DNA of 64,000 nucleotides. Source: Methanobrevibacter sp. YE315 (GTDB taxonomy: Archaea > Methanobacteriota > Methanobacteria > Methanobacteriales > Methanobacteriaceae). Shown in pieces: positions 44,409 to 49,907 of the stretch. The position numbers and the translations under genes are program-made. The stretch is taken from NCBI RefSeq assembly GCF_001548675.1, contig NZ_CP010834.1, positions 1,275,501 to 1,339,500 on the forward strand. The letters run 5' to 3'. The notes under the pieces were generated by a model. The model made no database searches and was not told where the DNA came from. It worked only from the letters and a program-made list of their open reading frames with translations. How positions within the stretch are numbered: the stretch's first letter is position 1; the number at the start of each line of letters is the position of its first letter.

Positions 44409-45134
44409 TTAAAGTGAAACATCGGCCTTTGTAAAGTAGATATATGAAATGGCCAATCCGATTAGGAAAGTTGCCAGAATAACTCCATAAGACACTCCTA
44501 TTCCCGCACTATACTCCGCAATTTCTCCGGATGCAATCAGATACGGGCATACCCAAGGAACATATGGTGCCCAATTCTGGCCATAAACCATCAGATTTAC
44601 CAATGTAAGGCCTGCTCCCCCAACCATTGCCGGAACCATATTTGTTATAAAAAGTGAAATGAACACAAAAGGTGAGAATGTCAGATACAATAAGACATTT
44701 GCAAATAGAAGCTGCACAAAGCTATCCACAAACAGCTTTAGGCTAAATCCTTCAAGACCTGCAATAAAGCCGAATATGAGTGTTGATAAGCTTGTAACTG
44801 CTGTCAAAATCACAATCCATACTAAAAACATGAGATATTTACTTGCAAGAAACTTTTCTCTAGATACAGGGATTGTCAGCATTGTCTTTAATGTATGTTC
44901 ATTGTATTCCCTGCCGAACAGGTAGGATATGATTATTGTAAAGATAAGAACTGCAAATATTGCAGACATGTACATATTCACATTAGTAAACAGCATTTCA
45001 AAGCTATGTCCCTCGTCAAAGGAAGTTACCGCTATAAACATCAGCAACGGAGGCAAAATAGCTCCCATCAAACTTAATAGAAATATCCTTGATCTTTTGA
45101 GTTTTAAAAATTCCATTTGAATAAAAGTCAACAT
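44409..45134 (-). CDS. ABC-2 type transporter permease
   Basis: A 241-residue protein with six membrane helices and the ABC-2 start MLTFIQMEFLKLKRSRIF. The cytoplasmic loop EYNEHTLKTMLTIPVSR is typical of lantibiotic- or Nat-type permeases. It would pair with the adjacent ATPase to export a peptide or lipid-like compound or to confer immunity. GGTGATAAT precedes the ATG, 9 nt after the ATPase stop. Confidence 0.9.
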   Translation of the reverse strand: MLTFIQMEFLKLKRSRIFLLSLMGAILPPLLMFIAVTSFDEGHSFEMLFTNVNMYMSAIFAVLIFTIIISYLFGREYNEHTLKTMLTIPVSREKFLASKYLMFLVWIVILTAVTSLSTLIFGFIAGLEGFSLKLFVDSFVQLLFANVLLYLTFSPFVFISLFITNMVPAMVGGAGLTLVNLMVYGQNWAPYVPWVCPYLIASGEIAEYSAGIGVSYGVILATFLIGLAISYIYFTKADVSL

Positions 45135-45143
45135 ATTATCACC

Positions 45144-46061
45144 CTAGTTATTTGAAACGAATCTTGTAAAAAAGTCTTCCAGATTTTCTTCACACAGATT
45201 TACCTTTTTTACATCGATTCCCGCTTTGACAAACAATTCATTAAACTTATCCCTTAAATCCAAGTTAGAATATAAGCAGATAACTCCTTGATTGATTGTG
45301 AAATCAATATTTTCCTTAAGTCCCAGTTCAATTAGAATCTTGATTGCCAAATCAATATCTGACACTTCAAATTCTACAAACTTATTCAATTTATTGAAAA
45401 GCTCTTCTTTTGAAATTTCATCAATCAAAACACCCCCATCCATAAATCCTATGACGTCTGCAATATTTTCTATTTCACTCAGTATATGTGATGAAATCAG
45501 AATTGTTATTCCAAATTCATGAGACAGTCTTTTAAGCAATGTTCTGATTTCCTTAATTCCAAAAGGATCAAGACCGTTGATCGGTTCATCCATAATCAAC
45601 AGTTCAGGATTATGCATAATGGCTGCAGCTATTCCCAAACGCTGCTTCATGCCCAATGAAAAATCCTTATATTTCTTTGAATTCACATTGCCCAAACTAA
45701 CCATTTCAAGGACTGAATTAATATTGATTGGATTATACTCACCCCTTAATTTGGCAATGATTTTTAGATTTTCATAGGCAGTTAAGTTTTCATAAAATCC
45801 CGGAGTTTCAATAATGGAACCTATTCTGGAATAGATTTCATTTGAATCCCTTCCAGGGTCTTTTCCGAAAAGGAATATTTCACCACTGCTTGGATGCGTG
45901 AGATTTAAAAGCATGCACATGGTTGTGGTTTTTCCAGCCCCGTTTTTGCCCAAAAGTCCATAGATCTTTCCTTTTTCAACATGCATATTGATTGAATCTA
46001 CAACCTTATTATTGGAATATATTTTTGACAAATTATTTGTTTCGATAACATAGTCTGCCAT
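45144..46061 (-). CDS. ABC transporter ATP-binding protein (BcrA type)
   Basis: A 305-residue ATPase. GLLGKNGAGKTTT is Walker A, FSLGMKQRLGIAAAI the signature, LLIMDEPINGLD Walker B and LISSHI the H-loop. A C-terminal extension of about 80 residues resembles that of bacitracin-type exporters. The ATG at 46061 is taken because an upstream TTG-like extension overlaps its AAGGGAG site. It energises the adjacent permease. Confidence 0.92.
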   Translation of the reverse strand: MADYVIETNNLSKIYSNNKVVDSINMHVEKGKIYGLLGKNGAGKTTTMCMLLNLTHPSSGEIFLFGKDPGRDSNEIYSRIGSIIETPGFYENLTAYENLKIIAKLRGEYNPININSVLEMVSLGNVNSKKYKDFSLGMKQRLGIAAAIMHNPELLIMDEPINGLDPFGIKEIRTLLKRLSHEFGITILISSHILSEIENIADVIGFMDGGVLIDEISKEELFNKLNKFVEFEVSDIDLAIKILIELGLKENIDFTINQGVICLYSNLDLRDKFNELFVKAGIDVKKVNLCEENLEDFFTRFVSNN

Positions 46062-46126
46062 ACCCAAAAACTCCCTTAAAATCACTTAAAAAAAAATAAA
46101 ATTGAATGTTTAAAAAAACATTCTAA

Positions 46127-46960
46127 CTATTTAATCGCTTCTCTGTAGATTGATCCGCAAACCCTATTGTAGAACACTTCACAATAGGAAGTGACGAACA
46201 ATCCTTCAATTACTGTTACAAAGGCTGATACTGCCAATGCCTGATTGTTGACAGTTGCTGCAAACATCACACCCAGCATGCTTAATATGAAACCTGCCGC
46301 GGCCATGATAATCATGTATACAATCAATGTAAATATGATTATTCCAACATATTTGCCCCATCCGAGATTAGAGATATTGTCGATTATTTCCCTAAAGTCA
46401 AATGCCTTTTTAATGCTGTCATGTGCAATCATATTGTTCAGTGCCATGATCATGAAGAAAAACACAACCACAAACAATATCATTGAAATCAATGTTAACA
46501 ATAGAAATATTGATGAATCGCCTGTTGCTAATCCTATTCCAATTACTATTATTGGAATAATGCTATATACCAAAGTCACAATGAAATATTTTATTCCATT
46601 GATGAAGACGTTCAATATGTCCATCATTCCCGGAAGTTCCTTTTTGTCCTCTATTGAGAATTTGACAATATTATACTTATATCCCATTATGAATAATGAA
46701 ATAATGAAGCTGACGACTGTCAGACCTATTACAAATTTGATATCAGTAATAGGCAACTGTGAAACATTTAGAGATGATACGGAACCTGGAACATTCTCTG
46801 TCAGATGTACCAGTGTTCTGTAAATATCGAAGGAATTATAACTAATTGATAATGATATCAGATTGAGAATTGCGAATATAACGCCAAAACCTAAAACCTT
46901 TTTTACATCATTAAAAGGATATTTTAATCCTTCCACCACATTGTCAGTTATGCTTGCCAT
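46127..46960 (-). CDS. DUF4013 family membrane protein (second of pair)
   Basis: A 277-residue polytopic protein with five or six helices; VVEGLKYPFNDVKKVLGFG at the N-terminus and GWGKYVGIIIF in the middle are typical of DUF4013. AAGGTGATTTG precedes the ATG. It is 9 nt after its paralogue at 46970, with which it shares topology but low identity, so the duplication is old. Possibly a membrane partner of the ABC exporter. Confidence 0.85.
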   Translation of the reverse strand: MASITDNVVEGLKYPFNDVKKVLGFGVIFAILNLISLSISYNSFDIYRTLVHLTENVPGSVSSLNVSQLPITDIKFVIGLTVVSFIISLFIMGYKYNIVKFSIEDKKELPGMMDILNVFINGIKYFIVTLVYSIIPIIVIGIGLATGDSSIFLLLTLISMILFVVVFFFMIMALNNMIAHDSIKKAFDFREIIDNISNLGWGKYVGIIIFTLIVYMIIMAAAGFILSMLGVMFAATVNNQALAVSAFVTVIEGLFVTSYCEVFYNRVCGSIYREAIK

Positions 46961-46969
46961 CAAATCACC

Positions 46970-47701
46970 TTAAATCTGCATTGTATATAATAATCCAACT
47001 GATCTTGAATTGAATATGCTTAGATATGGTCCAACAATGAACATTGATACGAGTGAATTAATTACTAAACCTAAACCGAATATTCCTCCCGCATCAGCAC
47101 CTAAAGCCGCTCCGGAAACTCCAAATATTGCAAATATTATTGCAATAATTAGGGTAACGACAAAGGATATGACTAAAGTTATAATTATCAATCCTAAGTA
47201 TGTTGCAATACATTGGGACCATCCTATTTCATCTATGACCTCTTTAATTTCGCTTAAAGCGAATGCTTTTGAAAATGAACCGTCATTATATGCCATATGA
47301 CATATTCCCATTTGGCTCATCAAACATGCCGCAATAATGGCAGCAAGTGTAATCAAACATCCAATAATCATTATCGCATTTGATAGAATTCCAGTTAGTT
47401 GTCCTGAAATAATTCCAAATATCACAAATATAACGAATGGCACGAGCAAATATGGAATCTGGACAATCACAACTTTCAATCCATCGATGAACATGCTTAT
47501 CAAATCATCGAAATCAGGTAAAGGATCTTTTCCGTTTATAACTCCATGTACCGCTGTATTAATAACTCTGTAATTGTATCCTGTAATCAAGAAAATTGGT
47601 ATCAATAAGAAACTAAACAAGCAGAATATTCCTAATACAAATAGTGTTACCAAGTTCTTTGCTGAATATTCAAATGCATCTTTGTATATGTCTAAAATCA
47701 T
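46970..47701 (-). CDS. DUF4013 family membrane protein (first of pair)
   Basis: A 243-residue polytopic protein. ILDIYKDAFEYSAKN, then helices at about 18-40, 70-95, 105-130, 165-195 and 200-235; GWSQCIATYLGLIII corresponds to the GW-containing segment of the paralogue. ATG 47701 after AGGTGATAAAA. It directly follows the regulator gene, so the regulator and both DUF4013 proteins form one transcript with the ABC genes. Confidence 0.85.
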   Translation of the reverse strand: MILDIYKDAFEYSAKNLVTLFVLGIFCLFSFLLIPIFLITGYNYRVINTAVHGVINGKDPLPDFDDLISMFIDGLKVVIVQIPYLLVPFVIFVIFGIISGQLTGILSNAIMIIGCLITLAAIIAACLMSQMGICHMAYNDGSFSKAFALSEIKEVIDEIGWSQCIATYLGLIIITLVISFVVTLIIAIIFAIFGVSGAALGADAGGIFGLGLVINSLVSMFIVGPYLSIFNSRSVGLLYTMQI

Positions 47702-47710
47702 TTTTATCAC

Positions 47711-47944
47711 CTAATAGTAATCATCGAAAATAAATATATCTTCCATGACGAAGTATTGTTCTCTATCTCCTTTAAACATCATTCTATTAAAAACCTGGGT
47801 TATGTCATACGCTAAAAATAAAGATGGATTATACCTACCATTTTCCAGTGCATTAATGGTTTGTCGGGTGACTCCAACTTTATCCCCCAGTTCTTTTTGG
47901 CTCATCTTGAGCTCTTGTCTTAAATATTTAATCATGGTCCTCAT
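47711..47944 (-). CDS. XRE-family (YgzD-like) helix-turn-helix regulator
   Basis: A 77-residue DNA-binding protein. MSQKELGDKVGVTRQTINAL is the helix-turn-helix, followed by ENGRYNPSLFLAYDIT, as in short YozG/YgzD regulators. ATG 47944 is chosen; a TTG at 47956 would lengthen it by four residues. It heads the DUF4013-ABC unit. An inverted repeat GTAATTA/TAATTAC lies upstream of its TATA element, a likely autoregulatory operator. Confidence 0.9.
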   Translation of the reverse strand: MRTMIKYLRQELKMSQKELGDKVGVTRQTINALENGRYNPSLFLAYDITQVFNRMMFKGDREQYFVMEDIFIFDDYY

Positions 47945-47976
47945 AGTATCCCACAAATTAATTCATTTTTGCAAAA

Positions 47977-48017
47977 AGTATTTAAGTGACAAAGTAATTA
48001 TGTTAAAATCTAATTAC
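47977..48017 (-). promoter_or_regulatory. Promoter and candidate operator of the regulator-ABC unit
   Basis: Leftward TATA-like CTTAAATAC at about 47977-47986. Just upstream, GTAATTA (47994-48000) and TAATTAC (48011-48017) form a perfect 7-10-7 inverted repeat, with further half-site-like AAATTAC at 48031. Size and position fit a homodimeric helix-turn-helix protein such as the one encoded by the first gene. Confidence 0.55.
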
Positions 48018-48230
48018 TTATGTTAATGTTAAATTACATGGTATATAAACTTTACGGTTTTTAATTAAATAATTTAAAACTAATAAAATCAATTAAAAAT
48101 AAATATTATCTATTAAAATATTATAAATATAATTTTTAATATTAATTTAAAAAATTAAATTATAATTCATTGTTAAATTAAAAATTAAACAAAAATAAAT
48201 TATTATTTTATTAAAAACTAAAAACGAAAG

Positions 48231-48402
48231 ATTTATATATGAGGTAATCCATCTTTAACATATGTAACATTACATTAACACATTATGTTACAAATAGGTT
48301 CCAAGCGGGAAAAAACTCGATTTAAATTTATAATATTATCAACCTATTCCTCCATTTTACCTCCTGCTTGGAACTGGAAAAATCAAAAAAATGGAATAGG
48401 AT
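48231..48402 (+). ncRNA. Candidate structured RNA with mutually exclusive stems
   Basis: TATA element ATTTATATAT at 48231-48240. From about 48264 the sequence can form GTAACAT/ATGTTAC (48264-48291), then a 12-bp stem GTTCCAAGCGGG/CCTGCTTGGAAC (48298-48309 with 48363-48374, one G-U). CCTATTCC (48343-48350) in its loop can pair either with GGAATAGG downstream (48393-48400), making a pseudoknot, or as AACCTATT with AATAGGTT (48293-48300). The loop also holds TTACCTCCT, complementary to ribosome binding sites. The strand is uncertain: on the minus strand it would lie beyond the metX terminator. Confidence 0.45.
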
Positions 48403-48440: not shown

Positions 48441-49907
48441 TTAACTAAGTAAATTACTAATTTGATCTACTGTAATAAGACCTAAAACTACCATATCCTC
48501 ATCAACGACCGGAAGACAGGATATATCAAATTTACGCATTATGCGAGCGACTTCTTCTATATTGTCACCGGCATTACAATATTTGACAGTTGTTGTCATT
48601 ATATCTTTCAGGCTATTAGAGTTGGTAGCGATAGATTTAGATAAATCCCAGCTTGTAACAATACCAATCAACTTATTTTCATCAGTCACTACAGGAATAT
48701 GAGTTACATGTGTATCCAACATTAATTTAGCTGCTGCAACAACATCTGCATCTTCCTTGATTGTAGCTACATGTTCCATCATCAGGTCTTCAACGACATT
48801 GTCTGATAGGAAATTTGAGAAAATATAGTTCAATTGCCCTTTTTCAAGTAAAAATGCATCATGACCATAATTGGATTTTATCTCTGAAAATGACACATCA
48901 ACCTCATTAGCGTTCAGGGCTGTTACAATTTCAGTGCTTTGCTCTGTTGGATATAACCAATCAGTATCAACTGAAATCACTTCAATTTTAGCTTCAACAT
49001 CTTTGAGTCCATCAATTAAAGAATCATTAATGGACAAATCAAACAGGTCAACGGCCTTTGTGATATATAAGTAACTGTTAGCATCAAAACGCTTTACAAA
49101 TGATTCCCCTTGGTATTTCAAGTAACTTTCAACTTGGAAATCAACAGTAAAGTCATAACTGATTTCATCCTTATCCTGAAGGCCACGTCCAAATTTGATA
49201 TCCATTGATTCATCACTCAAATAGGTAATGTGGGCAATCATACGAGCCAAAGACAATCCGTTTCTTGGAATTTGACCTGATTCATAGTAGTTTCCACCAT
49301 TCCAGCAAGGATCTGAAAATATTGACTGACGACCAACAGCATTGAATGCGATTTGCTGAGGATAGGACATTGCTGCTGTGGCTATCGGGATTGCTTTTTT
49401 CATCATTTTAGGATAGGATACCATCCATTCAAGAACCTGCATTCCTCCCATGGACCCGCCAATAACAGCATATAATTGCTTAATATTAAAATGATCAACC
49501 AATTTCTTTTGAACATTAACCATGTCCCTAATTGTGATTACCGGAAAATCGAGACCATATTCTTTACCTGTATCCGGGTTGATTGAACTTGGGCCGGTTG
49601 TTCCTTTACATCCACCCAATACATTGGAACAGATTATAAAGTATTTTTCGCTGTCCAATGCTTTTCCAGGACCAATCACTATCTCCCACCAGCCAGGTTT
49701 TTTATCTCCTTTATGCCAACCTGCTGCATGAGCATCACCAGTTAAAGCATGACAAATTAAAATAGCATTAGATTTATCTTTATTGAGTTCACCATACGTT
49801 TCATAAGCAATGGTAACTTCTTCAAGAACTTTTCCACTATCCAAATCAATTGGTTCATGTATATTAAGATATTTAGTTTCAACAATTCCAACAGATTCCT
49901 TATTCAT
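48441..49907 (-). CDS. metX: Homoserine O-acetyltransferase with C-terminal CBS pair
   Basis: A 488-residue protein. Residues 1-370 are the alpha/beta-hydrolase MetX ([28 protein letters not shown] with the nucleophile Ser, SNYGHDAFL with the His). Residues about 375-488 form two CBS motifs ([20 protein letters not shown] and [18 protein letters not shown]) that could sense adenosyl compounds. It activates homoserine for methionine synthesis. The start follows the rnc stop without a spacer. Several T-runs follow the stop codon and may end transcription. Confidence 0.94.

Follow-up and report, generated by a model that had tools for sequence, protein, structure and literature searches.

What kind of element lies beyond the metX gene of Methanobrevibacter sp. 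YE315, at positions 48231 to 48402 of the 64,000-nucleotide stretch analysed here (the window, from a source genome of 2.27 Mb in a single contig)? A preliminary description had read it as a pseudoknot or switch-like RNA. Using DNA searches and a covariance model built from 23 sequences, we found the element in 31 of 67 Methanobrevibacter genomes; no genome from the 16 other genera searched within the family gave a match. It is present as a single copy, one contaminated genome excepted, and the relatives that carry it are all labelled Methanobrevibacter, many of them from ruminant guts. Judged by this comparison, the locus encodes a small RNA that is conserved among methane-making archaea of the gut and had not been listed before; a small RNA gene on the plus strand, with its stem, loop motif, promoter and an operator common to two divergent promoters, is well supported by the conservation described below. 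Rfam returned no credible match at gathering or relaxed thresholds. We dismissed a match to XIST_intron (E 0.011), which lies far under the gathering score of that family, as AT-rich chance. Among viral contigs, a conserved 20-mer had zero exact matches.

The features of the RNA gene are as follows.
48225-48229 and 48232-48239, plus strand: BRE (CGAAA) and TATA box (TTTATATA), the small RNA promoter
48262..48381, plus strand: small RNA body, putative extent (covariance model match 48251-48381, 105.7 bits)
48263-48269 / 48286-48292, plus strand: hairpin 1, TGTAACA with TGTTACA, 98.8% of cells paired
48297-48310 / 48362-48375, plus strand: hairpin 2, the long stem, five double-changed pairs, 94.6% of cells paired
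48340..48362, plus strand: loop motif, CAACCTATTCCTCCATTTTACCT here and CAACCCAUUUUCCUC as the consensus of relatives, complement of a Shine-Dalgarno site plus AUG
48343..48350, plus strand: CCTATTCC, with two alternative partners (48293-48300; 48393-48400), which we regard as a chance or species-specific feature

The long stem proposed in the preliminary description is real: in the window, 5' GGTTCCAAGCGGGA pairs with TCCTGCTTGGAACT over 14 bp, two of them G·U, and related genomes keep a stem of 13-14 bp with compensatory changes. RNAalifold recovered both hairpins without prior input. Across the alignment, 96.1% of cells are paired in this structure, compared with 29-41% when the partner is slid by one to three columns. 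Double-sided changes occupy 10 cells against 2.7 in shuffles, and none of 500 shuffles scored as high, so that the covariation proposed as a check of the stem was indeed found. These compensatory changes sit in hairpin 2. Hairpin 1 has zero double-sided changes and holds seven of the 34 G·U cells; since it varies little and overlaps the operator described below, it could be an RNA hairpin, the DNA half-sites of an operator, or both. Single-sequence folding was only modestly better than in shuffles (z -1.9 on the plus strand, 10 of 200 shuffles; z -1.5 on the minus strand), and comparison across relatives was therefore needed to decide.

The same comparison assigns the strand. Pair variants include G·U in 34 cells at 10 positions and A·C in two cells at two positions; transcription from the minus strand would reverse these numbers, and the RNA is thus read from the plus strand, the one favoured from the outset. 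The count of positions (10 versus two) is the safer figure because the cells are not independent, changes being common to related sequences. An element of the minus strand, either a 3' UTR or terminator of metX or a leader with a tiny open reading frame (AGGAGGTAAAATG GAG GAA TAG), would account for the U-rich runs that follow metX on that strand and for the Shine-Dalgarno-like site and ATG found there in this species. However, it would turn the G·U changes of the stem into A·C, the tiny frame is not conserved, and the upstream gene differs among relatives; we consider such an element very improbable.

A plus-strand RNA is also consistent with the promoter. The TATA box noticed earlier proved to be a real, conserved promoter element, present with minor variants in all aligned relatives, and most of them have the BRE as well, as expected for an independently transcribed RNA. 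We infer a 5' end about 26 nt past the TATA centre, near 48262. No protein-coding frame is common to the relatives in our alignments, where loop lengths range over 41-54 nt and not in steps of three. T-runs lie 5-30 nt 3' of the stem in many relatives, as in archaeal termination; in the window species, the first T-run after the stem on the plus strand does not come before 48676. In two related genomes (loci L026 and L030), a sequence with a strong GC-rich inverted repeat (GACCCTTGCCGGTCGG) interrupts the RNA after the 5' arm, perhaps as an insertion.

The switch-like reading rested on CCTATTCC, which in this sequence has two mutually exclusive complements: GGAATAGG downstream (48393-48400) and, for AACCTATT, AATAGGTT upstream (48293-48300), overlapping the start of the stem. 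Both partners are present as described, but they belong to this species only, the pairings being absent from every relative with an alignable stem, and neither a pseudoknot nor an exclusive-pairing switch is supported. Sensing of methionine or SAM near metX fares no better: nothing in Rfam matched at gathering score, and the RNA is not the 5' leader of any gene, the plus-side gene being convergent here and in relatives. That convergent gene is metX-CBS in the window and azlD, a PAP2-type phosphatase gene or others in relatives, whereas the divergent HTH gene is present wherever the contig of a relative reaches that far; the RNA therefore belongs with the HTH operon and not with metX. Since the CCTATTCC pairings are species-specific and the metX neighbour differs among relatives, the riboswitch and metX-antisense readings both fail, and a methionine- or SAM-sensing switch strikes us as extremely improbable. 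What stands of the preliminary description is a structured plus-strand RNA with a TATA box and a loop complementary to ribosome binding sites. The window's MetX itself is a homoserine acetyltransferase with a fused C-terminal pair of CBS domains (48441-49907, minus strand).

The loop enclosed by hairpin 2 is about 50 nt long and contains a conserved motif, UUUUCC(UC), complementary to a Shine-Dalgarno site plus AUG. Counts among the 23 loops, with shuffled means in brackets, are 20 for TTTTCC (0.6), 16 for TTCCTC (0.4) and 12 for CCATTTTCC (0.01). CCCAUUUUCCUC is complementary to GAGGAAAAUGGG, in which AUG comes after a Shine-Dalgarno site. The window has its own version, UCCAUUUUACCUCC; its loop contains ATTTTACCTCCT at 48353-48364, and the stretch quoted in the preliminary description is present; the complementarity to ribosome binding sites claimed for it extends to most relatives. 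CAU, the partner for AUG, is lost in some relatives (CCCUUUUUUCC). In one subclade (L005, L011, L018 and L019), the seed AACCCAU is doubled within the loop (GAACCCAUnAUAUGCAAACCCAUUUUCC or similar).

This resemblance to the reverse of a ribosome-landing site suggests that the small RNA probably silences some mRNA. We searched seven genomes for 16-nt complementarity to the loop, a search blind to short seeds of 6-10 nt, and recovered the RNA gene itself and scattered positions, mostly within coding sequences; these genomes yielded no conserved mRNA that is almost fully complementary to the loop. The 23-nt window loop matched only itself in its own genome. The HTH and DUF4013 mRNAs paired with the RNA no better than did cross-species or shuffled pairs. 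Of the translation starts in the operon, that of the ABC permease paired best in some species, reaching -19.6 kcal/mol (z -4.0), but this pairing was absent in others. A strongly conserved loop motif, yet no conserved pairing partner, is what would be seen if the RNA acted via a protein or as a sponge, its C-rich loop copying the 16S anti-Shine-Dalgarno sequence or binding an RNA-binding protein, with the stem serving only to display the loop. Trans-acting RNAs, however, often use seeds of 6-10 nt, which are invisible to a 16-nt search, and the exact anti-Shine-Dalgarno core is not constant, CCTC being present in 18 of the 23 loops and CCTCC in two. We regard action through a protein or as a sponge as rather improbable, and favour base pairing with mRNA.

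On its other side, the RNA gene is divergent from an operon headed by a regulator.
48240..48292, plus strand: operator-like block, AGGTAATnCATCTTTAACATATGTAACAT...TTAACAcAT...TGTTACA, from the TATA box to about +30
47994..48049, minus strand: HTH operon promoter and operator, TTTATATACCATGTAATTTAACATTAACATAAGTAATTAGATTTTAACATAATTAC
47711..47956, minus strand: HTH_3 regulator of 81 aa, presumed repressor (Pfam HTH_3, E 7e-16)
46970-47710 and 46127-46963, minus strand: DUF4013 membrane proteins, presumed HTH operon
45144-46085, minus strand: ABC ATPase, presumed HTH operon
44409-45134, minus strand: ABC permease, presumed HTH operon

The HTH_3 regulator is the first gene of this divergent operon, which presumably spans 44409-47956. 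The small RNA and HTH promoters contain an operator-like block of the same layout, which on the HTH side reads TTTATATAnnATGTAAT...TTAACATAAGTAAT...TTTTAACATAATTAC on the other strand, and all relatives have the block AGGTAATnCATCTTTAACATATGTAA with minor variants. With up to three mismatches, the pattern TTTATATANNNNGTAANNNNNNNTTAACATANGTAA had exactly two sites in the genome, in the small RNA and HTH promoters, and 0 control matches; the HTH promoter region (47979-48030, minus strand) also gave a weak match to the RNA model (17.7 bits). Related sites also occur in other Methanobrevibacter species, where they lie ahead of an HTH-DUF4013 pair, a lone DUF4013 gene or the ABC ATPase gene. Given the two divergent promoters here and the same gene types elsewhere in the genus, the site is most likely the operator of this HTH family. 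It stands both in the regulator's own promoter and in the candidate promoter, as a shared operator of an HTH_3 regulon should. In archaea, a protein bound just past the TATA box usually represses, and the small RNA is apparently controlled by the neighbouring repressor gene.

As to what the operon responds to, the ABC genes are similar to transporters for lantibiotic protection (immunity), at scores below curated cut-offs, and the nearest named solved relatives of the HTH regulator include CylR2 and the 434 repressor. On account of these two likenesses, the HTH-ABC unit may respond to a membrane-active peptide. A literature search on DUF4013 found nothing relevant.

The two promoters stand at a fixed distance.
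48050..48231, no strand: AT-rich spacer of 182 bp between the divergent TATA boxes, fixed in length and weakly conserved in sequence

In 35 of 37 loci, 182-185 bp separate the back-to-back TATA boxes (span 48042-48239 here); the other two loci have 172 bp, about one helical turn less. The spacer has about 57% ungapped identity compared with 42% in shuffled sequences. In the same set of loci, the distance between the small RNA TATA box and the 3' stem arm varies with a spread of about 16 bp, which a few imperfect matches exaggerate. The spacer is not alone in its constancy, since the HTH gene's 5' leader is fairly constant in length too (spread 1.8 bp). Calculated from the pattern, the distance between the central palindromes of the operators is about 241-242 bp, close to 23 turns of 10.5 bp, and in the variant 231 bp, close to 22 turns. 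A/T-tract phasing peaked at 9.75 bp across all 37 spacers; among 11 divergent spacers it was not significant, 65 of 300 shuffles being as high. DNA looping between the operators is possible. That the HTH protein bridges the near-identical operators at this helically phased distance, switching the transporter operon and the small RNA together, is a tentative proposal that we hold to be unlikely. The operator and TATA pattern occurs twice in tandem, 184 bp apart, ahead of an ABC ATPase gene in a species that lacks the HTH-RNA unit (locus L168; genome G029, contig 1, 245457 and 245641).

The spacing also raises the question of whether the locus is mainly a DNA element, that is, a second HTH operator held at fixed distance for a loop or for chromatin, with the RNA secondary. 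In favour of this are the duplication of the operator in both promoters, the constancy of the distance (182-185 bp in 35 of 37 loci, 172 bp in two) despite the low identity of the spacer, and the retention of promoter and operator where the RNA body is absent. In about 15 species (at least 15 genomes with an HTH orthologue), the second hairpin is absent while the divergent promoter and operator are kept, more or less degenerate, with the small RNA TATA box among what remains. The promoter accordingly has a use or a history beyond the RNA, and the promoter pair probably predates the RNA body or can at least be separated from it. On the best HTH-gene tree, presence of the RNA requires at least seven changes; one origin on this tree is possible. 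A DNA element would nevertheless leave unexplained a downstream stem with G·U-consistent covariation, the loop motif and the conserved TATA box, and we doubt that it is the main function of the locus.

Our findings thus favour, as a rather likely overall model, a plus-strand small RNA under HTH control that base-pairs with mRNA and so keeps translation from starting. The RNA would be transcribed from its own plus-strand promoter, divergent from the HTH-DUF4013-ABC transporter operon. Most likely, the operator that closely follows the TATA box in both promoters is bound by the Xre/Cro-type HTH protein, which would thereby repress its own operon and the small RNA together; its release would turn both on. 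The stable stem would then present the large loop with its C-rich anti-Shine-Dalgarno-like motif, which most likely pairs with the ribosome binding sites and start codons of at least one mRNA and blocks their translation. A start suited to the loop motif would read GGAGGUAAAAUGGA.

Methanobrevibacter species are the main methane makers of ruminants and people, and regulatory RNAs and their control are scarcely known there; our searches of the literature turned up no account of a small RNA from this genus. The locus provides a precisely defined small RNA that can be put to the test, together with a candidate repressor, operator and loop motif, and the fixed spacing of its divergent promoters makes a clean test case for archaeal DNA looping or chromatin phasing. 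If true, bridged operators would amount to a self-contained archaeal control unit that joins a transporter operon to a small RNA directed against ribosome binding sites.

Several known systems resemble parts of this unit. Bacterial small RNAs such as RsaE likewise expose a conserved C-rich anti-Shine-Dalgarno motif, unpaired within a hairpin, that matches ribosome binding sites by complementarity. The likeness to RsaE-type RNAs lies in the C-rich anti-Shine-Dalgarno loop and implies no homology, Rfam being without a matching family. For the regulator, the closest parallel is CylR2/CylR1, since the HTH protein has CylR2 among its nearest relatives of solved structure. In Enterococcus faecalis, the small HTH repressor CylR2 (PDB 1utx) is encoded together with its membrane partner, CylR1, and acts at overlapping divergent bacterial promoters in a lantibiotic-type system, for which the review names no small RNA (PMC3709268). 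The likeness extends to the ABC genes, which here resemble lantibiotic-immunity transporters, and to DUF4013 and CylR1, both membrane proteins encoded alongside an HTH protein, with no kinship implied. The closest functional parallel is sRNA162 of Methanosarcina mazei, likewise a methanogen intergenic RNA beside a regulator gene, the likeness drawn here being one of function. sRNA162 adjoins a transcription factor gene and has targets in its gene neighbourhood: an unstructured region pairs with the mRNA of a nearby regulator, MM2441 of the ArsR family, across a ribosome binding site and start codon, and so masks the site (PMC3510493). Whereas that target is known, the neighbouring HTH mRNA is not predicted as a target here; and, in a further difference from sRNA162, the promoters of the RNA and the regulator have an operator-like site in common.
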